The notes under the pieces: generated by a model
What the model was told of the DNA's origin: nothing
The model's input: the letters and a program-made list of their open reading frames with translations, nothing else
The model's database searches: none
Assembly: GCF_947494025.1 (NCBI RefSeq)
Contig: NZ_CANLTQ010000020.1
Location: 1 to 52,103, forward strand
Reading direction: 5' to 3'
Source of the DNA: an uncultured Jannaschia sp.
GTDB lineage: Bacteria > Pseudomonadota > Alphaproteobacteria > Rhodobacterales > Rhodobacteraceae
Length of the DNA stretch: 52,103 nt
Shown here: positions 4,587 through 49,244 of the stretch, piece after piece
How the letters are laid out: the number at the start of each line of letters is the position of its first letter
Numbering within the stretch: the stretch's first letter is position 1
Made by a program: the position numbers and the translations under genes

Positions 4587-5483
4587 ATGCGAGACCCGGA
4601 CATGGACATGCCCTTACGGGATCGGCCACGCGCGCCGGTCACCAAGACCGATTCCACCTGTGGCAACGGCCCGTTCAGCCAACAGATCGGCTGCGCCGTT
4701 AACGAAGGTAAACACGGTCGGCAAGTACGGGCCGCGGCATGGCGTTCCGTCGGCTTCACCCGTTCTGCATATCGAAAACCCGGCCAGACAGGATCAGGCA
4801 GCGGGCGCCGCAGCGCCTTCGCCGCGCTCTGCCTGCTTATCGTGTCCGTTCCAGCCTCATCAGGCGCCACGGTCTACGAGTACACGCGCGACGGACGGGT
4901 GGTCGTGAAGGACTCGCTGAGCGCGCGGGCGCAAACCCGGTCGCAGCCGACCCGTCCGGCGCGCATTGCGGCCTCTCGCGCCGTCTACCGCGACATGGCC
5001 GAACAGGTCGCGCTGCGGCACGCCGGCGGCGAGGGTCCGCGCCGCGCCGGTCTCGACGCCCTCACCTTCGCGCAGGTGTTCGTCGAGCTGGTCCGCGCCG
5101 AGAGCAGCTTCAATCCCCGGGCGCTGTCGCCAAAAGGCGCGCAGGGCCTGGGACAACTCATGCCGGACACGGCGCGGCTCCTCGGCGTGCGCGATCCCTG
5201 GGACCCGGAACAGAACCTCGACGGCGCCGCCCGCTATTTCGCGGCGCAGCTCGACCGCTTCGGCGACGTGCACCTCGCGCTTGCGGCCTACAATGCCGGG
5301 CCGCACCGCGTAGCGCAGTATGGCGGCGTGCCCCCCTACCGGGAGACGCGGGCCTATGTCGCCAGGGTCACGGCCGCGGCGGCTTCGGTACAAACCGTGA
5401 ATCCCGTGCCCGTACTCCCCCGAACGGGACACACCGTTCGCTCCACCAGAAGTCAGAAGGACTCTTCGGTATGGCAATACTGA
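4587..5483 (+). CDS. virB1: VirB1-like lytic transglycosylase
   Basis: VirB1 proteins cut peptidoglycan locally so the secretion channel can cross the wall. The SLT domain carries the catalytic glutamate E172 in VRAESSFNPRALS, then PKGAQGLGQLMPDTA and the AYNAGPHRV motif near residue 234. A hydrophobic export segment (SAFAALCLLIVSVPASSG) lies around residues 76-94, far from the first ATG, so the true start may be downstream of 4587, but no ATG, GTG or TTG is available in the 40 codons before it. Its 3' end overlaps virB2 by 13 bp. First gene of the mating-pair operon. Confidence 0.85.
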   Translation: MRDPDMDMPLRDRPRAPVTKTDSTCGNGPFSQQIGCAVNEGKHGRQVRAAAWRSVGFTRSAYRKPGQTGSGSGRRSAFAALCLLIVSVPASSGATVYEYTRDGRVVVKDSLSARAQTRSQPTRPARIAASRAVYRDMAEQVALRHAGGEGPRRAGLDALTFAQVFVELVRAESSFNPRALSPKGAQGLGQLMPDTARLLGVRDPWDPEQNLDGAARYFAAQLDRFGDVHLALAAYNAGPHRVAQYGGVPPYRETRAYVARVTAAAASVQTVNPVPVLPRTGHTVRSTRSQKDSSVWQY

Positions 5484-5770
5484 CCCCCTCCACCCGTCGC
5501 ATCGGGGCCGTGGCGCTCGCGCTCGCGGTCTGCGCGGCCTCGCCGGTCTTCGCGCAGGACCTCTCGCCCATCAACACGTTCTTCACCACGCTCGGGACGG
5601 CGCTGACCGGCACGACCGGCAAGGCCATCGGTCTCGTCGCCCTGTGCGCGGTCGGCCTCCTGTTCCTGATGGGTCGGATGAACTGGCTCTTCGCGGGCTC
5701 GGTCGTCCTCGGTCTGGTGATCCTGTTCGGTGCGGCCACGATCCTCGGCGGCATCGGCACGACCGCCTGA
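5471..5770 (+). CDS. virB2: VirB2-type conjugative pilin
   Basis: This is the major pilus subunit precursor, 99 residues. The ATG at 5471 lies inside the end of virB1. A signal peptide ends at ASPVFAQ (about residue 29). The mature part has two membrane helices (about 50-68 and 73-95) joined by the short GRMN loop, as in VirB2/TrbC pilins. It is followed by virB3 after 3 bp. The longer frame that opens upstream at 4739 is only a shadow of virB1. Confidence 0.9.
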   Translation: MAILTPSTRRIGAVALALAVCAASPVFAQDLSPINTFFTTLGTALTGTTGKAIGLVALCAVGLLFLMGRMNWLFAGSVVLGLVILFGAATILGGIGTTA

Positions 5771-5773
5771 TCC

Positions 5774-6049
5774 ATGCGGAACCCGTGCTTCCTGGCGCTC
5801 ACGCGGCCGGTCTCGATGGCCGGCCTGCCGATGACCTACCTCGTGATCCTCTTCCTCGTGGTGGTCGGCGGCTACATCGTGTCGCTCTCGTTCCTGTGGC
5901 TTATCGGAAGCACGGCCCTCGGCTACGCCGCGCTCCGGGCGCTGGCGAACTACGACGCCCGGTTTCTCGACGTGATCTTCGCCAGCCTCGGGAAGACCCC
6001 GCCGACGCCGGGCGCCGTCCGGGGCGAAGGGAACACCTACCATGCTTGA
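5774..6049 (+). CDS. virB3: VirB3 inner-membrane protein
   Basis: This 91-residue protein has the VirB3 form: a short N-terminus with LTRPVSMAGLPM, one long hydrophobic stretch (about residues 20-55) that can form one or two membrane helices, then a soluble tail. VirB3 sits in the inner membrane and binds VirB4. It overlaps the start of virB4 by 8 bp, consistent with coupled translation. Confidence 0.88.
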   Translation: MRNPCFLALTRPVSMAGLPMTYLVILFLVVVGGYIVSLSFLWLIGSTALGYAALRALANYDARFLDVIFASLGKTPPTPGAVRGEGNTYHA

Positions 6050-8396
6050 CGTGAAGCAGGGCCTCGGCCGCCGCGCGGTCGATCCGTCGGGCCTGAAGCG
6101 CGAGCACATGCTGGCCTGCTACCTCCCCTACGTGACCGGCGTGGGCGAGGACGTCATCATGCTGCGCGACGGCGACGTGATGGCGTCGTTCCTCGTCGCG
6201 GGCATCGCGGCGGACACGGCGGACGCGACGTTCGTCGATGATCTGGCACGGACGTTCGCGGCCTCGATCGCGCAATCCCGGCCCGACGTGGCGTTCTACG
6301 TGCACCGCGTCTCGCACGAAACCCGGCCGACGCTGCCTCCAATCACAGGCGAGGGCCTCGCCGCGCGGATCGACCGGCAATGGCAGGGTCTCGTCTCCAG
6401 CGGCTCGCTGCGCGAGCGCGTCTCGATGGTCTCCGTGGTGGTCCGGCCCCGGACGCTCGCCGGGCTGTGGGCGCGGATCACCGGCGGCATGACGCGCGAC
6501 CTGCGCGCCGAGCGCGGCCGCCGCATCGCCCTGCTGAACGAGATCACCACCAATCTGATGCAGGCCCTGACGCCGGCGCGGCCGGAGCGGCTGACGCTCG
6601 CGGACGGCCGCTGGCTCGGGCTTCTGCGGGCGGCCGTGACCGGCAAGTACGCACCACTCACGCCGGGCGCGGCCTTCACGCCGATCGGCAACCTTCTCGT
6701 CGACAGCCGCGTGGACTTCCGGGGCGACAGCTTCGTCGTGCTGGGCAGCGACGAGGACGATCTGCGCTTCGGCGCGATATTCACCTTCAAGAAGTACCCG
6801 ACCGAGACCGCGCCGGGCTTTCTCGACCGGCTCGACCTGCCCGGCGACACGGTGGTGACGCACTCCTTCACGCCGATCGACCTCGTGCCGGCGCTGGCGC
6901 GGGTGCAGCGTACGGTTCGGCAGATGAGCGCGGCCGACGACGCCGCGCGCTCGGCGCAGGCGCAGCTCGAGGACGCCGCCGACGACTTGGCCTCGGGGCG
7001 GATCGGCTTCGGCCAGCACCAGGTCTCGATCATGGCCGTGGCGCGGAGCCGGGAGGAACTGGACGATCTGTCGTCGGAGATCCGCACGCAGTCGCAGCGC
7101 GCACTCGCCGTGGCCGTGCGCGAGGGCATCGGCGCGCGGACGGCATACTTCGCCCAGCATCCCGGTAACTTCTCCTTCCGGGCGCGCGACGCGATGATCT
7201 CCACGGCCTGCTTCGCGGACTTCGCCGCGCTGCACGCTACGGGGCGCGGGCTCCGGCCCGGCACCGAGCCCTGGGGCGCCCCGATCACGGTTCTTCCGAC
7301 GCTCGGCGGCGAGCCCTACCGCTTCAGCTTCCACCAGCCCGGCGAGCCGGGCGACCGCACGGTGGGGCATACGCTGGTGATCGGCCGCACCGGCTCGGGC
7401 AAGACGCTCGGCACTGCCTTCCTCCTGGCGCAGGCGCAGCGGCTCGGCCCCCGGATCATCGCCTTCGACAAGGATCGGGGTCTCGAGAGCGCGATCCGCG
7501 GCTTGGGCGGCAGCTACTCGCCCGTGCAGATGGGCGTGCCGACCGGGTTCAACCCGTTCCGCTCCGAGGCCGATCTGCGCGGCGTCGGCTGGCTCACCGA
7601 CTGGCTCGGCGCGCTGCTGACCACCGACGCCCCGCCGCTGACGGCGGTGCAGGAGGAAGCCCTGTCGAACGCCGTGCGCGCCAATGCCGAGTCCGACCCC
7701 TACCTGCAGAATCTGGCCGCCTTCCGCAGCCAGCTCGTCGCGGTCGACGATGGCGGCGACCTGCATACCCGGCTCGGCCAATGGGACGACGGCAAATACC
7801 ACTGGCTGTTCCCGGGCACCGGGACCGACCCGCTCACCTTCGAGAACCGGATCACCGCCTTCGACCTGACGGAAATCTTCGACAGCCCGGCGGTGCGGAC
7901 GGCGTGGCTCTCCTACGTGTTCCGGCGCGTCGAGCGCACGGTCGAGGACGGCCGGCCGACGATCATCGTGCTCGACGAGGCATGGAAGCTGCTCGACGAC
8001 ACGTATTTCCAGTCCCGCCTGAAGGACTGGATGCTGACGATGCGCAAGAAGAACGTGGTCGTCGTCATGCTGACGCAGCGCGTGGGCCACATCGCCGAGA
8101 GCGCGGCGGGCGGCTCGATCTTCGAGAGCTGCGTGACGCAGATCCTGTTCCCGAGCTCGCGGAACACGGCCCGGGAACTGGCGCCGCTCGGCCTTACCGA
8201 TCGCGAGGAGACCTTCCTCTGCGCGTCATCCGCGGGCGCGCGCCTGGCGCTGGTGCGGGCGAACGACGCCAGCACGGTGGTCGATCTCGACCTGTCGGTC
8301 CTCGGCCCGATGCTCGGCACGCTCGGTGCCGGCCGCGTCGTGGCTGACCCCGACGCGGACGACGACGAACCCCTGATCTTGAAGGAGGCTGTCTAA
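6042..8396 (+). CDS. virB4: VirB4 conjugation ATPase
   Basis: VirB4 is the large ATPase at the cytoplasmic base of the secretion channel, energising pilus assembly and substrate transfer. The 784 residues match family length. The N-terminal CagE/VirB4 domain is followed by Walker A GRTGSGKT near residue 448 and Walker B IIVLDEAWKLLDD near residue 640, then MRKKNVVVVMLTQ, typical of the family. The stop codon shares a base with the start of the small lipoprotein gene, a TAATG junction. Confidence 0.95.
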   Translation: MLDVKQGLGRRAVDPSGLKREHMLACYLPYVTGVGEDVIMLRDGDVMASFLVAGIAADTADATFVDDLARTFAASIAQSRPDVAFYVHRVSHETRPTLPPITGEGLAARIDRQWQGLVSSGSLRERVSMVSVVVRPRTLAGLWARITGGMTRDLRAERGRRIALLNEITTNLMQALTPARPERLTLADGRWLGLLRAAVTGKYAPLTPGAAFTPIGNLLVDSRVDFRGDSFVVLGSDEDDLRFGAIFTFKKYPTETAPGFLDRLDLPGDTVVTHSFTPIDLVPALARVQRTVRQMSAADDAARSAQAQLEDAADDLASGRIGFGQHQVSIMAVARSREELDDLSSEIRTQSQRALAVAVREGIGARTAYFAQHPGNFSFRARDAMISTACFADFAALHATGRGLRPGTEPWGAPITVLPTLGGEPYRFSFHQPGEPGDRTVGHTLVIGRTGSGKTLGTAFLLAQAQRLGPRIIAFDKDRGLESAIRGLGGSYSPVQMGVPTGFNPFRSEADLRGVGWLTDWLGALLTTDAPPLTAVQEEALSNAVRANAESDPYLQNLAAFRSQLVAVDDGGDLHTRLGQWDDGKYHWLFPGTGTDPLTFENRITAFDLTEIFDSPAVRTAWLSYVFRRVERTVEDGRPTIIVLDEAWKLLDDTYFQSRLKDWMLTMRKKNVVVVMLTQRVGHIAESAAGGSIFESCVTQILFPSSRNTARELAPLGLTDREETFLCASSAGARLALVRANDASTVVDLDLSVLGPMLGTLGAGRVVADPDADDDEPLILKEAV

Positions 8397-9641: not shown

Positions 9642-10775
9642 ATGGCGACATATGTCGAGAACACCCTGAACATGGTGGATACCGCGATTGGAAACTACGC
9701 GGAGAGCAGCTTCGCCGCGTTCGCCGGCCCGATCGCAACGGTGTGCCAAGCCATGGGCGTCGTCGGTCTGGCCTTCATCGCGATGAATGCGCTGACGCAA
9801 TGGGCGCCGATCCGTGCCAGCGAGTATCTCAAATGGGGCATCCGCTACGTCATCATTACTGCCGTCGCGACGAGTTGGGCGCAGTTCGGGCCGATCTACG
9901 ACATCGTCACCAACGTCCCCGGCGAACTGGGCGCCAAGCTCATGGGTAACGTGAACGCGCCCAATCTTAATACCGCGTTCGATCAGATGATTTCCACGAT
10001 GTTCGAGTTCTCTGACAGGCTCGGGGACGAGGCTAGCATCATCTTCGGCATCAGCATGGCTGCGATCGTGGTCTGGATCATCGGCTCGCTGATGGCGGCG
10101 GCGGCGATCATCGTGATTTCGCTCGGCAAGATCGGGCTCGGTATGGCGATCGCGCTGGCCCCGATCTTCATCCCGGCCCTCATGTTCAAGGCAACCTCCA
10201 ACCTGTTCGAGAGCTGGGTGCGCTTCACGCTCGGTTTCGCGCTGATCCCGTTGGTCATGGCGGGCGTCGTCGGTGCGATTGTCGGAATTGGCCAGGGCCT
10301 TATCGGCGATGCAAGTAATGCCACCAATCTGGAGGGCGCCGGAGGCTTTCTCATTGTCGGGGTTGGCGCGATCTTCATGACGCTGATGGTGCCCACGCTG
10401 GTCAACGGCCTGTCCGGCACGATCACCGCGACCGCCAACGGCGTGGCAATGGCTATGGGCGGAGCAGGCTACGCCGGAACGATGGCAATCGGCACCGGCA
10501 AAGGCATTCGCGCCGCCTCGCAAGCCGCGGCGCCCGTCATCGGTGGCGAGATCAGGGGGCATCAGGCCGGCCGCGCGGCCGAAGCCGCCGGGGGCAATTA
10601 CTGGGAAGGCCGCCATGCCGAGATGAAGCGCCAGAAGGAGCATCGTCTCAAGTATTCGGACTGGGCGAGCAAGTCGGCCGCAATGCACGGCAAGCAAGCC
10701 TCGGGGATCGATCGGTTCAAGGCGGCCAATGCCGGCCTGCGGGTCGAGAACCGCATAAAGGACAGGAAAGACTAG
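9642..10775 (+). CDS. virB6: VirB6 / TrbL polytopic channel protein
   Basis: VirB6 is the multi-spanning inner-membrane component that contacts the DNA substrate in the channel. The 377-residue product has five or six hydrophobic segments between about residues 30 and 270 (such as VVWIIGSLMAAAAIIVISLGK and FTLGFALIPLVMAGVVGAIVG), then a charged cytoplasmic tail. Order and topology agree with TrbL/VirB6. A GGACCG ribosome site precedes the ATG. Confidence 0.9.
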   Translation: MATYVENTLNMVDTAIGNYAESSFAAFAGPIATVCQAMGVVGLAFIAMNALTQWAPIRASEYLKWGIRYVIITAVATSWAQFGPIYDIVTNVPGELGAKLMGNVNAPNLNTAFDQMISTMFEFSDRLGDEASIIFGISMAAIVVWIIGSLMAAAAIIVISLGKIGLGMAIALAPIFIPALMFKATSNLFESWVRFTLGFALIPLVMAGVVGAIVGIGQGLIGDASNATNLEGAGGFLIVGVGAIFMTLMVPTLVNGLSGTITATANGVAMAMGGAGYAGTMAIGTGKGIRAASQAAAPVIGGEIRGHQAGRAAEAAGGNYWEGRHAEMKRQKEHRLKYSDWASKSAAMHGKQASGIDRFKAANAGLRVENRIKDRKD

Positions 10776-10878: not shown

Positions 10879-11553
10879 ATGGCGAAGAAAACACCCGCTG
10901 AGACCGCCGAAGCCTTCGAGAACGAGGTGTTCTTCTCGCTGCGCCGCCAGCGCAATCTCGGTTGGGTCGTGGGCGGGCTCGGCATGGGGATCGGGCTGGC
11001 CGCGGTCACGACGCTTGCCCTGACGATGCCGCTCAAGGAGACCCGGCCCTACGTCGTGATGGTGGACCGCACCACCGGCGAGTCCGAGCAGGTCGTCTCG
11101 GTCCGCCCGACCTCGCTCGACGACCAGCGCGCCGTCCTCGAGGCCGAGCTGGTGCGCTACGTCACCAACCGCGAGACCTACGACCCGAACGACAACCCCG
11201 AGCGCATCCCGCTCGTCGACGCGATGTCGGAGGCCCAGGCGCAGACGTCACTCCGGGCGATCTGGAACAGCGGCGCCGAGCAATACCCGCCCACGCTCTA
11301 TGGCGGCGAGACCGTCATCACCACGCGCGTCCGCTCGGTGTCGATCCTCGACGAGGACACCGCGCAGGTCCGCTTCGTGCGTCGGCTGGAGCGGGAGGGG
11401 ATCGCGCCCGTCGAGCGCGATTTCGTGGCGGTGGTCGGCTACCGCTTCGAGCCCCGCACGGAACGCACGCTCGATCAGGTCTGGCGCAACCCGCTGGGCT
11501 TCACCGTGACCGGCTACCGCATCGACGCCGAAACCCTCGATCCGAGAGGCTGA
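10879..11553 (+). CDS. virB8: VirB8 inner-membrane assembly protein
   Basis: VirB8 links the inner-membrane complex to the outer parts of the channel. The 224 residues comprise a cytoplasmic N-terminus, one membrane helix (about 27-50) and a periplasmic NTF2-like domain containing PYVVMVDRTTGE and the NPLGFTVTGYRID ending typical of VirB8. A GGAAGGA ribosome site precedes the ATG. The virB9 start follows after 2 bp. Confidence 0.93.
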   Translation: MAKKTPAETAEAFENEVFFSLRRQRNLGWVVGGLGMGIGLAAVTTLALTMPLKETRPYVVMVDRTTGESEQVVSVRPTSLDDQRAVLEAELVRYVTNRETYDPNDNPERIPLVDAMSEAQAQTSLRAIWNSGAEQYPPTLYGGETVITTRVRSVSILDEDTAQVRFVRRLEREGIAPVERDFVAVVGYRFEPRTERTLDQVWRNPLGFTVTGYRIDAETLDPRG

Positions 11554-11555
11554 CC

Positions 11556-12350
11556 ATGAAACTCGCCCTCCCCTTCCTGGCGCTTCTCGCCGTCGCCAGC
11601 CCGGTCCTCGCGGAGACGCAGCCGCGCCCCTACCCGCAGGACAGCCGCATCCGGTGGTTCAGCTACGACGAGCACGAGGTCTACCGGCTCGACACCTACA
11701 TGCGCTTCATCACCTCGATCGAGTTCGAGCCCGGCGAGAACATCGAGTCCGTGCAGGTGGGCGACAGTGAGAGCTGGCAGATCGTCCGCCTCGACCGCGG
11801 CGACATCCTGTCGGTGAAGCCGCTGATCGAGGGCGCCTACACCAACATGACGGTCTACACCAACCAGCGGCCCTACACGTTCGAGCTGCGCGCGCGCTCG
11901 GGCCAGGTCGGCGCGCCCAACCTGAACTACCGGGTCAGCTTCCGTTACCCCGGGGTCGAGGCGCAGGCCCGTCGCGCGGCGATCGAGCGGGCTGAGCGGC
12001 CAAAAGACTTCAACTATTACGCCGCCGGCGACGCGACCGATCTGAAGCCCATACAGGTCTACGACGACGGGCGCCGGACGATCTTCGTCTTTCCCCAGAA
12101 CGCCCGGCGGCCCGGCATCTTCCTCGTCGGGCCGGATGGACGCGAGAGCATCGTCAACGTCCGCCACGCCGAGAACGCCTCGGTCGTCGACCGTGTGTCG
12201 GACCGCTGGACGATCCGCATCGGCGACGAGGAGATCTGCGTGGCGCATGGCGACGTGATCCGCTCGGTGCCGGGCGGGCGCCGCGCCCCGCAGCTCGGCC
12301 AGGGCTACGGCTACGATCCCGAAATCCGAGGCACGGTGGTGACGAAATGA
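11556..12350 (+). CDS. virB9: VirB9 outer-membrane-complex protein
   Basis: The 264-residue product has a signal peptide (about 1-19, LAVASPVLAE). The VirB9/CagX fold follows: an N-terminal beta domain (YRLDTYMRFITSIEFEPGENIE) and a C-terminal domain (FNYYAAG..PIQVYDDGRRTIFVFP). VirB9 forms the core complex with VirB10 and the VirB7-type lipoprotein. The frame opening upstream at 10962 is a shadow of virB8. Its stop overlaps the virB10 start. Confidence 0.93.
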   Translation: MKLALPFLALLAVASPVLAETQPRPYPQDSRIRWFSYDEHEVYRLDTYMRFITSIEFEPGENIESVQVGDSESWQIVRLDRGDILSVKPLIEGAYTNMTVYTNQRPYTFELRARSGQVGAPNLNYRVSFRYPGVEAQARRAAIERAERPKDFNYYAAGDATDLKPIQVYDDGRRTIFVFPQNARRPGIFLVGPDGRESIVNVRHAENASVVDRVSDRWTIRIGDEEICVAHGDVIRSVPGGRRAPQLGQGYGYDPEIRGTVVTK

Positions 12351-13651
12351 GCGATCAGGAAGCAAACTCACGCGACCAGATGATCGACGGCGGGTCGCAA
12401 GGCGGCCGCGGCCGTGCCATAGCCGGGGTCGCGTTTCTCGGCGCGGTCGGCCTTGTCGCCTACTTCATGTTCACGCCCGCCTCGATGGACACCGGCGGGA
12501 CCGACACGTCGCAGACGCAGGAGATGCAGAGAGAAGAGACAGCGCCGGCGGTGGATACGGCCATGCCGGCCGTCCAGACTTCGGATCAACCCGACACGAC
12601 GCCGATCCCTGCCGTGATGGCCCCCGAGACGGCGCCGGTTCCGGGCAACGATGGCAGCGCCGCCGATCGCCAGCGGATTTCCGATCTCGAAGCGCAGCTC
12701 GAAGCTCTTCGGGAAGCACAAAACGGTAATGACCCAGCCGTCGAACAGGCTTTGCAGGAAATGCAGGACAAGCTCGACCGGGAGCGGCAAGAAGCAGACG
12801 CGCGCTACCAGGCGCTGCTGACCCAGCTTTCGCAGAACACTGGCGGCAACACTGGCATGAGCGAGGACGAACGCGCCGCGCGTCAGCGTCTCGAAGAAGA
12901 GCGCCAGCGCCGGGCGGCGATCGCCGAGGCGCAGATCATGTCGAACGGCATCGTCCTCGATGCGGCGGGCGCGAAGACAGGCGCCGGCCAGGGTGCGGCG
13001 GCCGAGGCCGGTGGCGGTTCCGGCCGCACGCTGTCGTCGAACGAGCAGTTCATTCAGGACGCCAGCACACAGAGCTACGACACCGTACGCGCCACCCGGA
13101 TCGCCAACCCGGGCCGGACCATCGTGCAGGGCACGACGCTGAACGCCGTGCTGGAGACCGCCGTCTCCACCGAGCTGCCCGGCATGATCCGCGCCGTCGT
13201 GACCGACGACGTGATGAGCTACGACGGCCTGAACGTCCTGATCCCGCAGGGCACGCGCCTGATCGGGTCGTACAACTCAGACGTCTCAGTCATCCAGGAC
13301 CGGGTGCAGATGGCCTGGAACCGGGCGGTGACGCCCGAGGGCGTCAGCGTCGAGCTGGGCGGCCACGGCGCCGACGCGCTCGGCATGTCGGGACAGGTCG
13401 GCACGGTGGACAGCCGGTTCCGCCAGCGGTTCGGCTCGGCCGCGCTGATCTCGCTGATCGGCGCCGGGCCGGATGTGGTCATCCGCGACGACACGCGGGG
13501 CGACGCGGCGGACGCGATGCAGGACGTGGGCGACGATCTCGCCAACGCCACGCAGGGCGTGATGGGCGCTTACCTGAACGCCGGACCGGTCATCTACATC
13601 GACCAGGGCGTCGACATGACGGTCTTCGTCAATAGAGACCTGGTGTTTTGA
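12347..13651 (+). CDS. virB10: VirB10 core-complex protein
   Basis: VirB10 spans both membranes and senses ATP use by the channel motors. The 434 residues have a short cytoplasmic tail, a membrane helix (about 24-42), a Thr/Pro-rich periplasmic stretch, a long charged coiled-coil (about 105-190), and the TrbI/VirB10 beta-barrel domain (VQGTTLNAVLETAVSTELPGMIRAVV..LIPQGTRLIGSY) to the C-terminus. It overlaps virB9 by 4 bp and virB11 by 4 bp. Confidence 0.94.
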   Translation: MSDQEANSRDQMIDGGSQGGRGRAIAGVAFLGAVGLVAYFMFTPASMDTGGTDTSQTQEMQREETAPAVDTAMPAVQTSDQPDTTPIPAVMAPETAPVPGNDGSAADRQRISDLEAQLEALREAQNGNDPAVEQALQEMQDKLDRERQEADARYQALLTQLSQNTGGNTGMSEDERAARQRLEEERQRRAAIAEAQIMSNGIVLDAAGAKTGAGQGAAAEAGGGSGRTLSSNEQFIQDASTQSYDTVRATRIANPGRTIVQGTTLNAVLETAVSTELPGMIRAVVTDDVMSYDGLNVLIPQGTRLIGSYNSDVSVIQDRVQMAWNRAVTPEGVSVELGGHGADALGMSGQVGTVDSRFRQRFGSAALISLIGAGPDVVIRDDTRGDAADAMQDVGDDLANATQGVMGAYLNAGPVIYIDQGVDMTVFVNRDLVF

Positions 13652-14640
13652 ACCAGCCTCCGAGCCCCGCCAGCTACGCCGAGCAGGGCCTTCTGCCGCT
13701 GCGCGATCTCCTCGTCTCCGAAGACGTCAACGAGGTCGTCATCAACCCCGACCGCAGCGTCTGGGTCGAGTACGCGCAGCGTGGCCACATGGAGCGATGG
13801 GACGGAACGATCCCACCCGATCGCTTGTCGGCGCTCGGCGCCCATCTCGCCGGCGAGGCCAAGACCCAGCTTGGCCGCCACCACCCCATCGTCTCGGGCC
13901 GGGTCCATGTCTTCGGTCAATCCATGCGCGTGCAGGTCATCGTGCCCCCCGCGATCGAGACCGGCGTGTCGGTGTCGATCCGCAAGTACGTCTCCCGCAT
14001 CCTCGAACTGCACGAAGTGGGCTTCCTCATGGGGGCCGAGGTCGATGTCGAGGCACAGCGGCGCAACCGGCTGGAGACGTTGCGCGCGCTGGCCGAGGCC
14101 GGCGATCTCGCGAACCTCATGCACCGGGCCGTCACCGGGAAGCTCAACATCCTCGTCTCCGGCGGCACGTCCTCGGGCAAGACCACCCTCGCCCGCGCGA
14201 TCATGTCGATGGCCGACCGGGGCGAGCGCATGGTCACGATCGAGGACGCGCCCGAGCTGCACCTGCCGCATCCGAACACTGTGGGCCTCGTGGCCGACCG
14301 GCGGACGGACTCGGAACGCTCCCCGGCCCGGCTTCTCGAAAGCGCGCTGCGGATGCGGCCCGACCGACTGATCCTGGGCGAAATCCGCGGCGCCGAGGCG
14401 TTCAACTTCCTCGAGGCGATCAACACCGGGCATCCCGGCTCGATCAGCACCATCCACGCCGACAGCCCGCAACTCGCGCTCGAACGCATGGCGATGATGG
14501 TGCTGCGTGCGGGCCTCGATCTCGGCCGGGACGACATCCTCGACTACGCCCGCGCCACCATCGACCTCGTGATACAGACAGGACGCCACGAGGGGCGTCG
14601 TGGCGTCCTGCAAGTGTTCATGCCGACTTTGGTAGACTAA
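13648..14640 (+). CDS. virB11: VirB11 secretion ATPase
   Basis: This hexameric traffic ATPase acts at the channel base. The 330 residues carry Walker A GGTSSGKTT (near residue 172), Walker B LILGEIRGAEAF (near 241) and the His box GHPGSISTIHAD. The start is a TTG at 13648 overlapping the virB10 stop; no ATG lies nearby, and the family N-terminus (YAEQGLLPLRDLLVSEDVNEVVIN) follows directly. It ends the operon; its TAA overlaps the TAG of convergent virD4 by 3 bp, with no terminator between them. Confidence 0.94.
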   Translation: MNQPPSPASYAEQGLLPLRDLLVSEDVNEVVINPDRSVWVEYAQRGHMERWDGTIPPDRLSALGAHLAGEAKTQLGRHHPIVSGRVHVFGQSMRVQVIVPPAIETGVSVSIRKYVSRILELHEVGFLMGAEVDVEAQRRNRLETLRALAEAGDLANLMHRAVTGKLNILVSGGTSSGKTTLARAIMSMADRGERMVTIEDAPELHLPHPNTVGLVADRRTDSERSPARLLESALRMRPDRLILGEIRGAEAFNFLEAINTGHPGSISTIHADSPQLALERMAMMVLRAGLDLGRDDILDYARATIDLVIQTGRHEGRRGVLQVFMPTLVD

Positions 14641-16787
14641 GCGTCGAACGAGTCTTCGGAATTACCTTTGTTTCGAGCGTGGCTCGCTTGGGCCTCCGCG
14701 AGATTCGTCTTCTTCAAACTCGGTTTATTGACGAAATTTGCGTTCTCTTTTGCATCCGCCTCAGATTGGGTTGGAGTGACTTCGCTATTGCCTGACGCAT
14801 TGTCCGTTTGTCCGGTGTCGTCTTGATCGGGGTCCGGACGATACAGCTTCTGCGCGACAATGAGCGCCTCGCTCATATGTCGCCACTGGTTGCGAACCGA
14901 GTAGACATGCTGCTCGTCGGCCGGTTCGGCAGCCAAGTCAGCATCGTCTTCGACGGTCGGTGTTTCAGCGGTGTCTTGCGTCTCCGGTTCGACCTTGGCC
15001 TCGACCGGGGCGGCGACGGCGGCTGGCTCCTCCTCGACGGGTCGATGGTCCGCGATCGGATTGACGGCGGCCCCGCCTTGCGTCGGCTTGGGCACGACGG
15101 GCTCCTGCGGGATCGCAAGCGGCTCGTCGGGAAGCTCCGGGGGTTCGGGATAGGGGCCGGTCTGACCCTCAAACAACGGCTTGAGCACCCGGTCCTGGTC
15201 GTACAGCACCTTCCTGACGAGGATCGGGTTGGAGTTCTGGACCAGGGCCACGATCAGATCGTCGCCAAGCATCCGAAGCTGCTCGGGACGGATCAGCGGA
15301 GCGCCATCTTCGCGCTCTTGGTACGAGGTCGACAGATCGCCCCCCTTCCACGATTTCGACCGCGACTTGCGGGTGAAGTCGCCGATCGCGGAGCTGATGT
15401 AGGCTGGCGTGTCCTTGTCGGCCGGGGCCATGAAGAGCTGCATCCGGCAGTTCGCGAGAATCACCGCCGCGCCCTCCTTGCCGTAGACGTCGAGCGAGGA
15501 GATCGTCTGCACCACGATCATGATCCGGCCGCCGTAGCTGCGGAGCGTGGCGATCGCCGAGACCAGCACATCCATTTTTCCGAGGGCCGGGAACTCGTCG
15601 AGACAGAACAGGACCGTGTATTTCTCGCCCTTCTCCAGATCGGGTTCCGCTCGCTGCATGATGGAGATCGTCTGCTGGAACATCAGGCGGATGAGCGGAG
15701 CCAGCGGGACAAGATCGTTGGGGGAGACGACGAGATAGATCGAGGCGGGCTCGGAGCGCAGCGTCTTGATCGAGAAGTCCGAGGCCGACGTCGCTGCCCG
15801 CACGGCCGGATCGGCCCAGAGGCTCAGGCCACCGTCGCTCAGCACCGAAAGGTAGGAGCTGAGGATGCGCGCCTCCATGCCCCCCATCTTGTAGAAGATC
15901 TTCTTGGCTTCCGGGGATTTCACCTCGTCGCCCAGCTTGCGAAGCGTGGCGAAGGCATCGCCGGGTTGCGAGAGCGCGTCGAAGACCGCACCGATGGTCG
16001 GCGTCTTGCGCTCGACCGCGAGCATCGCCGTGGCCGCGAAGATGTCGCGCGCGCCTTCTAGGAAGCCCTGGCCGTTGCCATGCGCGATAATGAAGGAGGC
16101 GGCGAGCCGCCGCGCCTCGGTGAACCGGCGGCGCTCATGCGTGTCGGCCACATCCTGCAAGGGGTTGTAGCGATGCGTCCGGCCGTCTTCGGCATAGGGC
16201 GAGAACTTGTAGACCGCATCGCCGAACGAGACGCGACGCCGGCTGGTCTTGGCGAACAGCTCGCCCTTGAGATCGAGCACGAGGATCGAGCCCGGATAGA
16301 CCAGGATCGTCGGGATCACGACGCTGCGGGTCTTCCCCGATCCGGTCGGAGCCGAAGTGATGCTGTGCGGAATGTCCCGAGACGACAGGAAGTCCGCCCT
16401 CGATTTCGGCGTACCGACCTTTCCGTAGATCGGGCCGTTCAACGTCTTGAGGGGCGTGAGGAGACGGGACCGCTTCATCTCGGCCTTCGTTGCCCACCGG
16501 GCCGAGCCATGACTGGTGAGCTGGCGCTTGGTGCCGAACGCAGGGATCGCGATCGCCAGCGCAATCCCGAGGCCGCCCCAGATCATCAGCGCCGTACGGA
16601 TTGGCTCAAGCGTGGTGATGCCGCCGAGGGTCGCGGGCAGGAAGTCGAAGATCGTGGTGAAGCCGACATTCGCGACGTCGCGCCCGGTGACCCAGGACGC
16701 ATAGGCGCCGGCCGCGATTGCCCCGAGCATCAGCCCGATCACGAGGCCGCCCAGAGCCAGAGGCAGGATGGATTTTGCAGGTGACAT
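14637..16787 (-). CDS. virD4: VirD4 type IV coupling protein
   Basis: The coupling protein docks the relaxase-DNA complex to the secretion channel. The 716 residues have two N-terminal membrane helices (about 8-30 and 64-84), Walker A APTGSGKT at 146-153, Walker B VLFCLDEFPALGK near 395, and the TraG/VirD4 core to about residue 560. The last 150 residues form a Pro/Glu/Ala-rich acidic tail ending in polar repeats, longer than in Ti VirD4; it may be a disordered docking region. It is convergent with virB11 and about 30 bp downstream of the relaxase gene. Confidence 0.95.
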   Translation of the reverse strand: MSPAKSILPLALGGLVIGLMLGAIAAGAYASWVTGRDVANVGFTTIFDFLPATLGGITTLEPIRTALMIWGGLGIALAIAIPAFGTKRQLTSHGSARWATKAEMKRSRLLTPLKTLNGPIYGKVGTPKSRADFLSSRDIPHSITSAPTGSGKTRSVVIPTILVYPGSILVLDLKGELFAKTSRRRVSFGDAVYKFSPYAEDGRTHRYNPLQDVADTHERRRFTEARRLAASFIIAHGNGQGFLEGARDIFAATAMLAVERKTPTIGAVFDALSQPGDAFATLRKLGDEVKSPEAKKIFYKMGGMEARILSSYLSVLSDGGLSLWADPAVRAATSASDFSIKTLRSEPASIYLVVSPNDLVPLAPLIRLMFQQTISIMQRAEPDLEKGEKYTVLFCLDEFPALGKMDVLVSAIATLRSYGGRIMIVVQTISSLDVYGKEGAAVILANCRMQLFMAPADKDTPAYISSAIGDFTRKSRSKSWKGGDLSTSYQEREDGAPLIRPEQLRMLGDDLIVALVQNSNPILVRKVLYDQDRVLKPLFEGQTGPYPEPPELPDEPLAIPQEPVVPKPTQGGAAVNPIADHRPVEEEPAAVAAPVEAKVEPETQDTAETPTVEDDADLAAEPADEQHVYSVRNQWRHMSEALIVAQKLYRPDPDQDDTGQTDNASGNSEVTPTQSEADAKENANFVNKPSLKKTNLAEAQASHARNKGNSEDSFDA

Positions 16788-16817: not shown

Positions 16818-18599
16818 TCAGAGGCCGTGGCCGTTGGCGTCGCGCTCGCGCTTGGCGCGCTCGGCATCCGCACGGTCTTGCTGGCGCTTCGCTTCCTCGC
16901 GCTGCGCCGCCGCCTGCCTCTCGGCTGCCTGCTCGGCCTGAACCTGCTGGTAGATCGGGTTGGCTTCTCGTGCGGCGGTGCGCGCGGACTCCTCCTGCGC
17001 TGCCGTCTGCCGCGCCCGCTCCTGCGGCGATGCCTCGGTGGCGGCGGTCGTGCCACGTCCCGTGTCCTGTCGGGACGCCTCGGGTTCACGGGACCGGACC
17101 GCATCGTAGATCGTCGCGATCTCGCGGTGCATCTTCGACAGGGCGAGGTCGCGCGACTGCACGTCCTCCGGGCCGTCGCCGCGCGCGACGCGGGTCCGGG
17201 CGCGTTCCTCGACCTCGGCGCGATCGAACTGTTGCTCCAGTCCCTTGGATGGCGCAGGCCCCGCATACCGTTCGACGGTCGCTTCGGGATCGGTACCGAA
17301 GCGAACGGCCACCGCCCTTACCTTCGCTTCCACGGCGGTGCGGGCCGCTGCGGCGTTCGGATCGTTCGCATCGAAGCCGCGATACCGCCCGCTCGTACTC
17401 GGCTCGGTGTAGGGTGCGAGGTCGCGGGCATCGGCCAGGATCGGCGCGGTCTTTGCCTTCAGCGCGGCGATGTCGCGCGTCATCCTCATGCGCGTGGCGC
17501 TGTCGCTCACCTGCCCCATGCCGCGATCTATCTTGTCGATGTTGTCGCGGATTTCCGCTTTTGCTGCCTCGACGCGCTGGTTCATGTCGGCCTCCTGCCG
17601 ATTGCTGATTTTTGCCGTGATGTCCGCAAGGGCCTTTCCCTCGGCCGCGGCTGCGGAGGCCGCGTAGAGGATCCTGGAGGCTTCGGGCGACCGGGCCTCG
17701 ACGAGCTGCGCCTGCATGGCGAAACGCCGTGACTGATGCAGCAGCGCCGCTGCTGCGAGGGTTGCCGTCTCCTGTGTATGAGCTGGGGCGACCGGCTCGC
17801 GGCCTTCCTTGCCGGCCAGCCGGTACTCGGCATCGGGCACCGGACGGTCATGGACGCCCCGCGCCAGGCGCGGTGTCGCTTCGAGCTCGATCCCCTCCCG
17901 CCCGGCGACATCCACGAGGACCTCGCGCATCCGGTCGTAGTTCATGTCGCTGCGCTGCGAGACCTTGAGCCATTCGCCATGCTCCAGCCCGCGCCGGTAG
18001 ACGACGACGTGCATGTGCGGATGCGCCCGATCGGTGTGGAACGCGGTGTAATAGTCGTAGCTGTCGCCGCCGTACTGGCCCGACCCGAACATCTCTTCGG
18101 CCCACGCCCGCCCTGCCCGTTTCGCTGCATCGGGGTCGGTGTTCTCGGGAAAGCTGGCGATGAAATGCGACGTCCGGTCGGCCCGGCCCGATCCCTCCGG
18201 CGGCATCCGCCACAACCGCTCCATTTCCGCAGCTTGCACGTCGTCGATCTCGGCCCCCAACAAGGTCTCGGACCGCTCCAGCGGTTGCTGGCCGTCGCGC
18301 GACAGGTACGCCATCTGCGCCCGCAGCCCGTGCACGTCGGACGCCCCGCCCTTACGGACCATCTTTATCACCGCTTGCGGCTTGCGGCCGGGCAATCCCC
18401 CGCCACCTCCCCCGCCCCCGTTCATGCGTTCGACGTTCCGCTTGTGCGCCGCCTTCAGCGCCAGTCCGGTCTCGACCTCGTGGTGTCGCCGCGCTCGCCC
18501 GGCTTGGACGATCGCCCAATCCTTTCCCATGACGGCATCGAGCGCGGAGATATTGTTAGGCGCTGAACGGCCGCGCTTGAGAAGATCGAAGACCAGCAT
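16818..18599 (-). CDS. VirD2/MobP-type relaxase
   Basis: The relaxase nicks oriT and pilots the strand into the recipient. Its N-terminal domain carries motif I MAYLSRDG with probable catalytic Tyr98, motif II HFIASFPENTDPD near 145-157, and metal-binding motif III HTDRAHPHMHVVV at 188-200. The following region to residue 593 is helical and rich in Ala, Arg and Glu, likely for transport or protein contacts. An uncommon run of eight glycines (residues 61-68) precedes the nuclease domain. It is 2 bp downstream of the MobC-like gene. Ti-type family placement agrees with the nick-site match at 19141. Confidence 0.93.
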   Translation of the reverse strand: MLVFDLLKRGRSAPNNISALDAVMGKDWAIVQAGRARRHHEVETGLALKAAHKRNVERMNGGGGGGGGLPGRKPQAVIKMVRKGGASDVHGLRAQMAYLSRDGQQPLERSETLLGAEIDDVQAAEMERLWRMPPEGSGRADRTSHFIASFPENTDPDAAKRAGRAWAEEMFGSGQYGGDSYDYYTAFHTDRAHPHMHVVVYRRGLEHGEWLKVSQRSDMNYDRMREVLVDVAGREGIELEATPRLARGVHDRPVPDAEYRLAGKEGREPVAPAHTQETATLAAAALLHQSRRFAMQAQLVEARSPEASRILYAASAAAAEGKALADITAKISNRQEADMNQRVEAAKAEIRDNIDKIDRGMGQVSDSATRMRMTRDIAALKAKTAPILADARDLAPYTEPSTSGRYRGFDANDPNAAAARTAVEAKVRAVAVRFGTDPEATVERYAGPAPSKGLEQQFDRAEVEERARTRVARGDGPEDVQSRDLALSKMHREIATIYDAVRSREPEASRQDTGRGTTAATEASPQERARQTAAQEESARTAAREANPIYQQVQAEQAAERQAAAQREEAKRQQDRADAERAKRERDANGHGL

Positions 18600-18601: not shown

Positions 18602-19078
18602 TCAGTCCGCCGAGGCTTGCTGAAGCCGTGCCAGGCCATCCTCGCGCCGAGCCGCGAGATCAAGGATGGTTTGTGTCTGGCTGTGGACGCGGGCCAGCTC
18701 ACGAGCGAGCATCGTGCGCTCCTCCATGAAAGCCCTGTAATCGGGATCGCGGGTCCGGTTGGCCGACTTGGCGATCTGGTTGATGTTCCGGGCAACGCCT
18801 ATGAGTTGGCGTGTGATGTCCCGCAAGACCTCAATCTGCGCCGGATCAGCCTCGACGAACCCGCCGATCCGACGCACCGCGATCCGCAAGGCGCGGCTTC
18901 TCTTGATCCCCAGCTGCGCGACCTGCGTGTCGAACTCTGCCAGTTCGGCCTCTGTTACCCGTACTGTCACCACTTTGTCGGCACGTCGGACGGACTTTTC
19001 GGCCGATGGGACAGCCCAATCACCACCCTTCATCTCGCGGTTCTTCCAAGCTGGCACTTTGGGGTTGTCGTTCGTCAT
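18602..19078 (-). CDS. MobC-like relaxosome accessory protein
   Basis: The 158-residue product (start MTNDNPKVPAW) has a ribbon-helix-helix-like segment (KVVTVRVTEAELAEFDTQVAQLGIKRSRALRIAV) followed by the MobC-type helical region (LIGVARNINQIAKSANR). Such proteins bind oriT and help the relaxase open the nick region. An in-frame ATG at 19168 lies upstream but would run translation across the nick site and inverted repeat, so the ATG at 19078 is chosen. It is cotranscribed with the relaxase, and the inverted repeat at 19113-19131 could also serve as its operator. Confidence 0.85.
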   Translation of the reverse strand: MTNDNPKVPAWKNREMKGGDWAVPSAEKSVRRADKVVTVRVTEAELAEFDTQVAQLGIKRSRALRIAVRRIGGFVEADPAQIEVLRDITRQLIGVARNINQIAKSANRTRDPDYRAFMEERTMLARELARVHSQTQTILDLAARREDGLARLQQASAD

Positions 19079-19112: not shown

Positions 19113-19150
19113 TCAAATGTACTACATTTGAATATATCCTGCCAATCACT
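19113..19150 (+). other. Origin of transfer: inverted repeat plus nick site
   Basis: TCAAATGT and ACATTTGA form a perfect 8-bp inverted repeat (19113-19131) with a 3-bp spacer. It runs directly into AATATATCCTGCC. ATATATCCTG is the nick core of Ti T-DNA borders, and TATCCTG|C matches the RP4/IncP nick consensus, so the predicted nick is between 19141 and 19142 on the plus strand. An inverted repeat just 5' of the nick is also the RP4 layout. The MobC and relaxase genes start 35 bp away, as usual for oriT. A further imperfect repeat (ATTCGC-ATC / GATGGCGAAT) lies at 19198-19220. Confidence 0.85.
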
Positions 19151-19363
19151 ACAAATCTTACTCACCACTCTTCATCGTCGTCAATCGCTTGCTGCCATTC
19201 GCATCGTTAGATGGCGAATAAGGCGAATGCGCGAAGATGGACGGAGTAGGGGCCTCTAGGAGAGCGTGTGAAGCCCCTTAGAGCGCGATCTTATCGGGGG
19301 TGGTCACCCTTTCCCGATTCAGTGTCGGATGGCCTCTAGTACCTTCGTAAGAAGATTTCGTAG

Positions 19364-19923
19364 GGTGACAGGGTGATGCGGTAAAGCGGTACGGTGGTGA
19401 CAGGGTGATGCGGTAGGGGGGTAGTAGGATGCGGTGGTAAAGCGGTGCGGCGGTAACAGGGTGATAGAGTAAGGCGGTACGGCGGTAGAAGGGTGATAGG
19501 GTAAGGCGGTACAGCGGTAGCAGGGTGATAGGGTAAGGCGGTACAGCGGTAGCAGGGTGATAGGGTAAGACGGTACGGCGGTAGCAGGGTGATGGGGTAA
19601 AGCGGTACGGCGGTAGCAGGGTGATGGGGTAAGGCGGTACGGCGGTAGCAGGGTGATGGGGTAAGGCGGTACGGCGGTAGCAGGGTGCTGTGGTAAAGCG
19701 GTACGGCGGTAGCAGGGTGATGGGGTAAAGCGGTACGGCGGTAGCAGGGTGCTGTGGTAAAGCGGTACGGCGGTAGTAGGATGCGGTGGTAAAGCGGTGC
19801 GGCGGTAACAGGGTGATGGGGTAATACGGTAACAGGGTGCTGCTGAGTTGTGGTGACAGGGTACCAGGGTAACGCGGAGTTGGGGTAAAAGGGTGAAAGG
19901 GTAGCGCGCAGTCAGGGTGATAG
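19364..19923 (+). repeat. Array of 70 phased octamers beginning GGT
   Basis: From 19364 to 19923 the sequence divides exactly into 70 octamers with no phase slip; 64 start with GGT. In the centre four types alternate in fixed order, GGTAAAGC (or GGTAAGGC), GGTACGGC, GGTAGCAG, GGTGATGG (or GGTGATAG), giving a 32-bp super-repeat, close to three helical turns. The edges are more degenerate. It starts 222 bp after the predicted nick and ends 87 bp before the VirC1-like gene. Likely roles are a binding platform for that ATPase or its partner (overdrive-like transfer enhancer) or a plasmid centromere. Two long open frames across it are by-products of the repeat. Confidence 0.95.
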
Positions 19924-20010
19924 AGAGATACGATCCTGAGATCAGCGGGCACCTAAACCCGAACGCGCGAACCGCAGGCCGAGAACTGCGGAGGCAAAGG
20001 AGTTGAGCAG

Positions 20011-20790
20011 ATGTTGGACAGCAAACAGGATGCGGCGGCAGAGCCGGCCCCCGAGGAAGCCGACGCCCCAAAGATCATCACCTTCATGAGTATGAAAGGC
20101 GGGGCCGGAAAGACGATCAGCCTTATGGCGCTCGCATCGGGCCTCGTCGAACGGGGTCTTCGCATCGCCGCCCTCGAGGCCGATGAAGTCACACCGATCA
20201 CCAAGTGGCGGAAGCATGCGTTGGGCAAGGAGACGTGGAACCCGAACGTCTTCATCCATCAGGCTCGGCACGCGGAAGACCTCCCGGTCGTCTTCCAGGC
20301 GATCGAAAAGGACAAGGTGGATTACGTTCTGGTCGACACCAAGGGCGGCGGCTCCGACATCAACCAGACATTGATCCTGAATTCGCAGCTCGTGATCGTG
20401 CCGTCCGGTCTCGATGGGACCGAAATGGATGCCCTCTTCGAGACCTGCAACTACCTAGTCGAAGTCGTCGAAGGCGCAGCAAATGAAATCCCTATCGTGA
20501 TCCTCCTGAACAGGACGCCCACACGCGAATCAGCCCTGCCGGTAACGCATCGCATGGGCCTCGCAACACTCATCGAAGCGGAACTGCCTGTATTGAAGAC
20601 CCGCCTGCCCGACAGACAAGTGCATGCCGATACCGCCTCCTCAGGAATACTCAAACGATACTATGAGTATTGCCGGTCCACACCCGCCCGGCGACTGGTC
20701 GCACCCGAAGTCCTCAAGGCGATCCGAGATTCAGAAGCCTTGACGGACGAGGTCCTCGCGATCCTGACGACGCCGGAAGAGACCGCGTGA
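20011..20790 (+). CDS. virC1: VirC1-like ParA-family ATPase
   Basis: The 259-residue product is a ParA/MinD-type P-loop ATPase with deviant Walker A KGGAGKT at 29-35. The surrounding sequence is much closer to Agrobacterium VirC1 than to plasmid ParA: MKGGAGKTISLMALASGL, then ALEADEVTPITKWRKHALGKETWNP and VDTKGGGSDINQTLI. VirC1 binds the overdrive next to T-DNA borders, recruits the relaxosome to the cell pole and raises T-strand yield. Here the gene lies next to oriT and the octamer array. AAGGAG precedes the ATG. A partition role is the alternative; no canonical ParB follows. Confidence 0.85.
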   Translation: MLDSKQDAAAEPAPEEADAPKIITFMSMKGGAGKTISLMALASGLVERGLRIAALEADEVTPITKWRKHALGKETWNPNVFIHQARHAEDLPVVFQAIEKDKVDYVLVDTKGGGSDINQTLILNSQLVIVPSGLDGTEMDALFETCNYLVEVVEGAANEIPIVILLNRTPTRESALPVTHRMGLATLIEAELPVLKTRLPDRQVHADTASSGILKRYYEYCRSTPARRLVAPEVLKAIRDSEALTDEVLAILTTPEETA

Positions 20791-21554
20791 TGGCTTTCAA
20801 GCTGAAGAGAATGCCGTCCGAAATGGACTACGATACGGTTCGGGCTCGACAGAAAAAGCGCGAAAAGAACGACTCGGAAGAGCTCGTCGCCGATCCGCCC
20901 CGCAAGCCCGAGACCCCCGAGGTTTCGGATGTATCGGAGGCTTCGAGCCCGATAGAGACGAAAGACGAAACCGTTCCGGCCACTGATATTGATTCAGGCG
21001 AGTCCGACGATCTCCTTCCCAAACCCGATCCAGAACCGCACAAGCTTGCCTCCGGTTCGCTGGTCTCGGCAGACTCGAATATCACCCCGCAATCTTTGAT
21101 TGTGTCCGGACAGTCCGTCCAGAAGGACCAGGAAACCTCGCGAGCGCCGGTCAACATTGTCGAACCGACCGACGAGGATCAGCCTGATCGCATGATAATC
21201 AAAGGATATGCCGCACAGCCGGCTTCCGGTGTTTCAGCTTGGTATGATGAGATCGCACCAGTCTACGGAGACAGAGCTGCCATGCGGCATTTCGTTGAGG
21301 TAGCTATTGCGGCATTTACGGAGGCTTTGGAAGCTGGCCAAGTCAATCATACTCAGATCGACCCGATCTACTCGTCGTTACCTAAGAAGCAACAAGTCAC
21401 CAGAGTAATCCCGAGTTCCAGCTATGCAATCTTTGCCGGGAAAGTCGATCCAAACGGAATCCTGAAGCCCGGAACAGTGGGACGAGCATTCGTTCAAGGG
21501 GCGCTCAACCATTTCGTCGCCCAAGAGAAAGAGCGTAATAATAAGCACCCATAA
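20790..21554 (+). CDS. Unknown protein in virC2 position
   Basis: The ATG overlaps the stop of the VirC1-like gene (TGATG), so the pair is translationally coupled. The 254-residue product starts with a basic segment (FKLKRMPSEMDYDTVRARQKKREKN). About 110 acidic, Pro/Ser/Thr-rich and probably disordered residues follow. A folded C-terminal domain (about 150-245) contains WYDEIAPVYGDRAAMRHFVEVAIAAFTEAL and VDPNGILKPGTVGRAFVQGAL. The position is that of virC2 or parB. I cannot align it to either by eye; binding to the octamer array is a reasonable guess. Confidence 0.8.
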   Translation: MAFKLKRMPSEMDYDTVRARQKKREKNDSEELVADPPRKPETPEVSDVSEASSPIETKDETVPATDIDSGESDDLLPKPDPEPHKLASGSLVSADSNITPQSLIVSGQSVQKDQETSRAPVNIVEPTDEDQPDRMIIKGYAAQPASGVSAWYDEIAPVYGDRAAMRHFVEVAIAAFTEALEAGQVNHTQIDPIYSSLPKKQQVTRVIPSSSYAIFAGKVDPNGILKPGTVGRAFVQGALNHFVAQEKERNNKHP

Positions 21555-44308: not shown

Positions 44309-44345
44309 GGGGTCTCTCCTCAAGTCTCTTTCCCGGCCTCATGGC

Positions 44346-48516: not shown

Positions 48517-48546
48517 CGGTCCGGGTCCTTTCTCCGGGGTGAAAAT

Positions 48547-49159: not shown

Positions 49160-49205
49160 GAGGGCCTCCATTCTGCTTGGTGCCGCAGCGCCGGATGGGA
49201 TAGAG

Positions 49206-49233: not shown

Positions 49234-49244
49234 GGGGCTCGTCG

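Follow-up and report, generated by a model that had tools for sequence, protein, structure and literature searches.

The window analysed here is a whole contig (C20) of 52,103 bases from an uncultured Jannaschia sp. whose genome is assembled in 215 contigs, and it carries, beside a virD1 homologue, a border-type nick core followed by a long array of 8-bp repeats and by an overlapping pair of genes related to virC1 and virC2 of Agrobacterium. On sequence comparison, we give a probability of about 0.68 to the reading that this locus is the origin of transfer (oriT) of a VirB/VirD4-type plasmid with a built-in centromere-like nucleoprotein platform, which would serve transfer and probably segregation as well. 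The likelihoods that we attach to other explanations below overlap with that of this reading and do not sum to one. The parts are known from other systems; what is new is their assembly, in which a large array, fixed in phase and free in sequence, lies between a border-type nick and virC1C2 on what would be the leading side of oriT.

The array in the window and at related loci

The initial annotation had recognised a phased array of 70 octamers over 560 bp. The array is real, and refinement brings it to 72 octamers over 578 bp, beginning 220 bp past the nick core and stopping 73 bp short of the two-gene operon. The letters GGT occupy unit positions 2-4 in 64 of the 72 units, against a best-phase maximum that never exceeded 13 in 500 dinucleotide shuffles, and Tandem Repeats Finder reports a 32-bp higher-order unit, a cycle of four octamers, with a score of 590. 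The lag-8/9 score is 9.6 in the array and at most 4.2 elsewhere in the window. A G-quadruplex or strand-composition role was considered and ruled out, because the window array is G-rich and the arrays at other loci are not.

Plasmid loci were taken from 60 of 1,148 records, of which 14 were fetched, and two more from a second set of 60; the remaining records were further Roseobacter denitrificans and Phaeobacter entries of the same identity, together with Agrobacterium, Rhizobium and others. With whole-genome searches added, these gave 14 distinct loci that combine the nick core with virC1C2 (the window, C29, L037, L007, L009, L038-L045 and L093; L056 and L091 repeat L042 and were not counted). 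In every one virD1 adjoins the nick, as judged by annotation (L038-L045), Pfam (the window) or tblastn (C29, L037, L007, L009 and L093), and in every one an array is present, so that the order of nick, array and virC1, which the initial annotation had proposed looking for in other plasmids, recurs throughout the set. The period is 8 at ten loci, 9 at three (C29, L007 and L045) and 17 at L038, and it is strictly kept, whilst the unit sequences are mostly unrelated from locus to locus. The arrays measure 178-578 bp and comprise 22-72 units, and they begin 75-346 bp from the nick.

Phase information exceeded that of every shuffle at each locus (200 shuffles for 13 loci and 500 for L093) in a test for which boundaries were drawn by eye and the best period was taken. 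At L040, L041 and L093 the 12-column total equals or exceeds the 8-column total, with lag scores favouring multiples of 8. The weakest lag scores were 5.7 (L040), 6.2 (L039) and 6.3 (L041), compared with 4.1 in 40 shuffles; that of L093 is also 5.7, a figure with no shuffles behind it.

A scan for phased stretches, with an 8/9-phase score of 5.5 or more as the threshold, covered the window, the whole of pP13_g, 50 of the 54.6 kb of pOT1-9, 19.5 kb of G051:C6, 20 of the 29.7 kb of C29 and, from an R. denitrificans plasmid of 106 kb, a 36-kb part that does not include the locus. It recovered the expected array in all five of the scanned stretches that have one. The only such array in the whole of pP13_g is the virD1-virC1 array, at 17876-18526, and repC lies elsewhere, at 1-1248. 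Elsewhere the scan gave matches at lag 27 only (window 37026-37626 and pOT1-9 46376-46626) and, where the G051:C6 piece ends, a second stretch of 8/9 phase.

That the array might be a general property of matches to the VirC1 family, PF07015, was ruled out by 27 other family matches (L010-L036). None of these 27 stretches contains ATATATCCTGC, three of them (L019, L026 and L027) having the shorter [CT]ATCCTG[CT] or its complement upstream, and in 26 no period signal above 4.2 was found in the 1.5 kb at most that was available upstream. The exception, L028/L060 (G051:C6, L060 2233-11360), has an 8-bp CCGC array followed by a VirC1-like ParA gene and an unclassified second gene, and this pair adjoins TrwB- and TrwC-like (MOBF) genes; a module of array and ParA may thus also serve an unrelated relaxase family. 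Two class-level matches (L094 and L096) gave no period signal above 4.2, and over the 1.5 kb that precede virC1 the signals of the p42a locus (L058) and of its relative L059 did not exceed 3.3.

Arrays accompany virC1C2 and not the nick by itself, although the numbers are small. The pattern GTNNNACNTTNNNATATATCCTGC, derived from these loci, occurs at seven places in 394 genomes, four of them in the window's own genome, and at none when read backward as a control. Arrays were found at all four places that have virC1C2 and at none of the three without virC, namely C10 and C51 of the window's own genome and G215:C18; the rhizobial virD1-virC1 intergenic regions L046, L047, L048 and L057 likewise have neither nick nor array. 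C51 (L063, about 9.1 kb, nick near 2644) and G215:C18 (L066, about 9 kb) keep the nick core and inverted repeat, and no array or virC pair was found in them. Their small size, overlapping ends (77 and 123 bases) and Rep3-type initiator suggest that they are likely to be small, apparently circular plasmids using a VirD1/VirD2 relaxosome supplied in trans. C51 also carries a reverse transcriptase gene at 6503-7879 (Pfam RVT_1, 2.9e-13). In C10 (L064/L051, about 54.2 kb) only a relaxase fragment lies beside the nick copy, with no array or virC1C2 adjoining, and a separate ParA is encoded at 16 kb of this contig.

These observations bear on whether the arrays might be replication iterons or non-functional tandem-repeat expansions, which we consider very improbable. 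Slippage would fit one finding, that L042, L056 and L091, Phaeobacter plasmids for which the same proteins are listed, have virD1-virC1 gaps whose lengths are exactly 8 and 16 bp apart. Against it stand the maintenance of the period while the letters change over 14 loci, the single array of pP13_g lying apart from repC, and the lack of an array at the three nick-only sites, two of which are on the small Rep3-type plasmids.

Nick core and probable direction of transfer

The border-type nick core and inverted repeat that had been noticed at the outset are both confirmed. The core lies beside virD1/virD2-like genes and is of the TATCCTG type found in MOBP origins of transfer and T-DNA borders; we take it to be the same as the Ti border core. 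It is invariant in all 16 aligned rows (15 distinct sequences), which were picked for having it. The inverted repeat, CAAATGT-ACT-ACATTTG in the window, lies directly 5' of the core, and its arms covary: over the 15 distinct sequences 93.8% of cells are paired, against 31-50% in slid controls, and nine arm cells are altered on both sides, neither figure being reached in 500 shuffles. Overall, three of five covariation measures were at 0/500 shuffles, and the other two were no better than shuffles (44/500 for the number of pairs altered on both sides and 195/500 for additional pair types). The spacer that separates nick from array shows no element of clear conservation in the alignment of loci.

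An oriT oligonucleotide of RP4 has an identical CTATCCTGCC core (PMC3772185), and with the transferred strand assigned from this RP4-type core, the 5' end that the relaxase joins would be the one right of 19141, and the recipient would receive the array first.

VirC1 and VirC2 homologues

The first gene of the operon had been described as following VirC1 rather than partition ParA, and this was right, since the Pfam VirC1 model (1e-48; 166 bits against a cut-off of 24, residues 21-252) is far ahead of the next model, CbiA (2.9e-8). The best solved matches of the VirC1 family profile are nevertheless the ParF/ParA partition ATPases, with ParF (4dzz) at 4.5e-17. The same profile gave 20 matches in viral contigs, the best at 8e-11.

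The overlapping second gene had been placed in the virC2 slot and called unknown; the slot was correct, and by profile comparison the gene itself is a divergent VirC2 homologue. As a single sequence its product scores 21.1 bits against the PF07181 cut-off of 25, and nine of the 16 aligned members, three of which are rhizobial, match VirC2 in Pfam with E values no higher than 0.01. A profile of the 13 VirC2-like proteins from array loci matches solved VirC2 (2rh3) at 4.2e-14, and the match reaches 7.1e-30 once the three rhizobial rows are added. The predicted structure of the window protein has a mean predicted local distance difference test score (pLDDT) of 43 and does not confirm a VirC2 fold. 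VirC2 (2RH3) is listed among ribbon-helix-helix relaxosome factors (PMC6514445), and the C-terminal domain of the window protein, at about residues 135-254, would be the part that reads the array.

Comparison with known systems

Agrobacterium Ti plasmids provide a close precedent, having in common with these loci a border-type nick core and, in the neighbourhood of genes of the virD1, virD2 and virD4 type, homologues of VirC1 and VirC2. Agrobacterium VirC1 binds overdrive, aids relaxosome assembly and delivers the transfer intermediate to VirD4 (PMC4949242, PMC4285021). The initial annotation proposed an enlarged overdrive serving the plasmid's own conjugation. Taken strictly, this means that the array would only stimulate nicking and T-strand production through local recruitment of VirD2, with no part in segregation. 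Overdrive is situated beyond the right border, in DNA that is not transferred, whereas the array adjoins virC1 and, on the presumed transferred strand, lies 3' of the putative nick, which would put it on the opposite, leading side. It is also larger than overdrive, for which a preprint names a minimal region of 24 bp and a native one of 83 bp (PMC13277942). The border-type nick, the VirC1 and VirC2 homologues and the VirB/VirD4 genes argue in favour of an overdrive-type function, as does the finding that overdrive and VirC1 enhance T-strand production (PMC4285021). We regard the strict form as somewhat unlikely, given also that VirC1 is the only ParA of its type in several of the plasmids (see below). 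The broader proposal keeps its plausibility: VirD1, a VirD2-like relaxase, VirD4, VirB proteins, the nick, VirC1/VirC2 and the array are all in place, and a role in transfer may be read from them. A role confined to transfer is less likely, given an anatomy that is also that of a type Ib partition centromere. The outcome that was to refute the proposal, namely that the array is a centromere, may be true alongside a transfer role and not instead of it.

A type Ib partition system comprises a ParA, a partner of the ribbon-helix-helix class and, close to the operon, a centromere made up of short boxes (PMC7308502, PMC5016525). In anatomy, and in anatomy only, the present loci agree, having a ParA-family ATPase, a partner and a repeat array near the operon. 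TP228 (ParF-ParG-parH) and pSM19035 (delta-omega-parS) differ from them in that here the partner is VirC2-like, the module sits in the relaxosome region and the 8- or 9-bp unit has a plasmid-specific sequence. Since ParG and omega double as repressors (PMC5016525), VirC2 might bind the array mainly to repress the virC operon, with secondary effects on transfer, and the array does end only 20-165 bp before virC1 in all 14 loci. We think this distinctly improbable, because 22-72 units seem far beyond the need of an operator and the array stands beside oriT in every locus.

A third precedent is the stb operon of R388, compared here through its published description. Within the leading region StbA binds two sets of five 9-bp repeats (stbDRs), spaced by 2 bp. 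Without StbA the plasmid becomes unstable and transfer rises 50-fold, whilst deletion of the ParA-like StbB, which is dispensable for stability, abolishes conjugation (PMC3098194). The differences are that in R388 the partner gene comes first and the ATPase second, and that StbA is described there as having no homology to ParB-like proteins. The array would lie on the leading side, as in R388 stb and opposite to the side of overdrive. We know of no phased array of comparable size in the TraK/TraL region of RP4. That leading region is otherwise similar in having a StbB-like ATPase, TraL, and a DNA-binding partner near nic, TraK, which binds DNA between nic and traK (PMC3098194).

Taken together, the type Ib anatomy, the ParF match, Agrobacterium VirC1 and R388 stb lead us to propose a VirC2-coated array that would be moved by VirC1. 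The C-terminal domain of VirC2, a ribbon-helix-helix in the solved Agrobacterium protein, would bind one unit each and so coat the array, and the VirC1 ATPase would engage this filament as ParF/ParA engage centromeres coated by ParG or omega. Along with this filament, VirC1 could then bring oriT and the relaxosome to membrane-located VirD4 and so promote transfer, and in small plasmids without another ParA the platform would probably also segregate the plasmid. Since each plasmid has its own array code, the platform would act on its own DNA even where nearly the same nick is present on several replicons in the cell. That the array would raise transfer, and not lower it, is a guess, because in R388 the repeat-bound protein restrains transfer.

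Possible role in segregation

Among nine complete plasmids, a search with the AAA_31 profile found VirC1 as the sole match in five, of 43-61 kb, and a further match in the other four, of 81-151 kb. Phaeobacter accounts for three of the five, and two of these three hardly differ at this locus. VirC1 is likewise the sole AAA_31 match on the window contig. VirD4 is present in all nine plasmids and VirB4 in seven, the profile search giving no VirB4 match in pROLI81 and pOT1-9, both of which keep the array and virC1C2. For pP13_g repC is listed and repA is not, and one protein of the ParB/RepB/Spo0J family lies far from repC; the gene list of pOT1-9, incomplete at 50 of 54.6 kb, has repC and neither repA nor repB.

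These data could be taken further, to a pure partition locus in which the array is a centromere, VirC1 and VirC2 are a type Ib ParA and ParB, and oriT is a neighbour through backbone layout, with no role in transfer. The architecture, the ParF match, the five plasmids in which VirC1 is alone and the two that retain the module without a VirB4 match would all fit. So would L095 (G499:C6), where an 18-bp-phased array of AGATATC-type units upstream of 1501 (score 6.9 at lag 18 and 0.2 at lag 9) stands ahead of a ParA-like gene and another, short gene; this locus has no nick core upstream and looks like a plain partition relative. We nevertheless find this unlikely: the array and virC1C2 adjoin the nick core and virD1 in all 14 loci, the protein is nearer to VirC1 than to any ParA model, Agrobacterium VirC1 acts in transfer (PMC4949242), and four of the nine plasmids have a further AAA_31 match whilst all nine have VirD4.

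Divergence of arrays and proteins

Comparison of close relatives suggests which part of the module may follow the array. The window and L037 have VirC1 at 93% (synonymous divergence, dS, 0.36) and VirD1 at 94% (dS 0.24), and their arrays are unrelated (5-mer cosine 0.14). VirC2 has a dS of 0.12 over its first 30 codons and of 0.90 in the C-domain (up to 2.0 in 30-codon pieces), where the nonsynonymous divergence is 0.22. As VirC1, which lies between the array and VirC2, stayed similar, two separate segments changed and their neighbours did not. In the Phaeobacter pair L042/L044 VirC1 and the VirC2 C-domain are both at 95%, and the array is kept (cosine 0.79). At a greater distance, the window and C29, which belong to the same genome, have a near-identical nick and unrelated arrays (period 8 vs 9), with VirD1 at 75%, the relaxase at 59% and VirC1 at 33%. 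Unit length follows descent in part, the loci of period 9 forming one clade of the VirC1 tree (support 97/96).

A number of points weigh against the proposed platform, or against VirC2 as the reader of its array. The VirC2 linker of the window and L037 (codons 61-150) has diverged too, at dS 0.56-0.78, so the change in VirC2 is not confined to the C-domain, and the period-9 loci do not group in the VirC2 C-domain tree, itself unresolved. Over the 14 loci array and VirC2 divergence correlate in a Mantel test (r 0.51, p 0.006), but without L044 this drops to r 0.09 (p 0.24), and VirC1 divergence correlates with the array as well (r 0.39, p 0.005). We therefore set aside a correlation across all loci, which is significant solely through the close pair L042/L044, and the link between VirC2 and array comes from two close pairs. 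For the two plasmids that keep array and virC1C2 without a VirB4 match, self-transfer is a poorer fit than segregation or mobilisation in trans. As R388 StbA lowers transfer and StbB is unneeded for stability, roles and signs could differ here. The search for other ParA proteins used the AAA_31 profile alone, and in the search for ParM the controls were silent. Finally, these plasmids carry ParB-family proteins that have no ParA beside them and might be part of a different segregation system: one of 723 amino acids lies at 42152-44323 (-) in the window beside a DUF3768 gene, pP13_g has one of 616 amino acids, and the annotation of two further related plasmids includes ParB-like proteins that are similarly large.

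Gene content of the contig

The closest named relative found for the window is a contig from an uncultured Rhodobacteraceae bacterium. No end overlap of 15-200 bases was found that would show the contig to be a circle. Leftward of the site the genes run virD4-virD2-virD1, and rightward follow the nick core, the array and virC1-virC2; Pfam identifies VirB2-, VirB4-, VirB6-, VirB8-, VirB10- and VirB11-like secretion genes on the same contig (Table 1). A Strawberry-notch-type helicase gene at 37811-42055 (-) and an ArdC-like antirestriction/zincin protein at 47569-49320 (-) are perhaps plasmid establishment genes.

Table 1. Features of the oriT region and of the secretion genes in the window
Feature	Coordinates	Strand	Evidence or remark
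VirB2-like (TrbC) pilin domain near the end of an open reading frame	4739..5770	+	Pfam TrbC 1.8e-15
VirB4	6042..8396	+	Pfam CagE_TrbE_VirB 4.1e-27
VirB6	9642..10775	+	Pfam TrbL 3.9e-32
VirB8	10879..11553	+	Pfam VirB8 2.6e-55
VirB10	12347..13651	+	Pfam TrbI 5.3e-47
VirB11 (by position and type)	13648..14640	+	Pfam T2SSE 2.1e-31
VirD4-type coupling protein	14637..16787	-	Pfam T4SS-DNA_transf 1.1e-97
MobA/VirD2-like relaxase	16818..18599	-	Pfam Relaxase 5.9e-14
VirD1 homologue, divergently oriented to virC1	18602..19078	-	Pfam VirD1 9.6e-16
Inverted repeat at nick, 7-bp arms, 3-bp loop	19114..19130	+	arm covariation
Border/IncP-type nick core ATATATCCTGC	19132..19142	+	nick inferred after 19141
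Octamer array, 72 units, box [G/C]GGT + 4-bp spacer, partly 32-bp higher-order unit	19361..19938	+	
virC1 homologue, ParA/ParF-type ATPase	20011..20790	+	Pfam VirC1 1e-48
virC2 homologue	20790..21554	+	Pfam VirC2 2.2e-4 (below cut-off), residues 132-250; relatives' profile vs 2rh3 4.2e-14

Implications

The titles and abstracts among the literature matches listed mention no array of this kind at virD1-virC1, which does not prove that none has been described. A more far-reaching suggestion, which we hold only tentatively, is that the module is both centromere and transfer enhancer and the array an identity code. The DNA-reading part of VirC2 and the array would switch together whilst VirC1, VirD1 and the nick stay, so that co-resident plasmids with the same nick keep their relaxosomes and segregation apart, and VirC1/VirC2 and overdrive of Ti plasmids would be the reduced descendant of such a centromere.

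That the spacing is kept and the letters are not suggests one device for sharing the plasmid out at division and for sending it to new cells. The finding bears on two open questions, the origin of VirC1/VirC2 and overdrive and the way in which ParA-type proteins link plasmid inheritance to conjugation. The loci offer natural variants for both: in each, a large and recognisable cis element lies at oriT and keeps to a ruler of 8 or 9 bp while its sequence varies freely, and the cognate protein pair comes with it. The proposed platform could also explain how small repC plasmids without RepA are inherited, and how plasmids with the same nick coexist.

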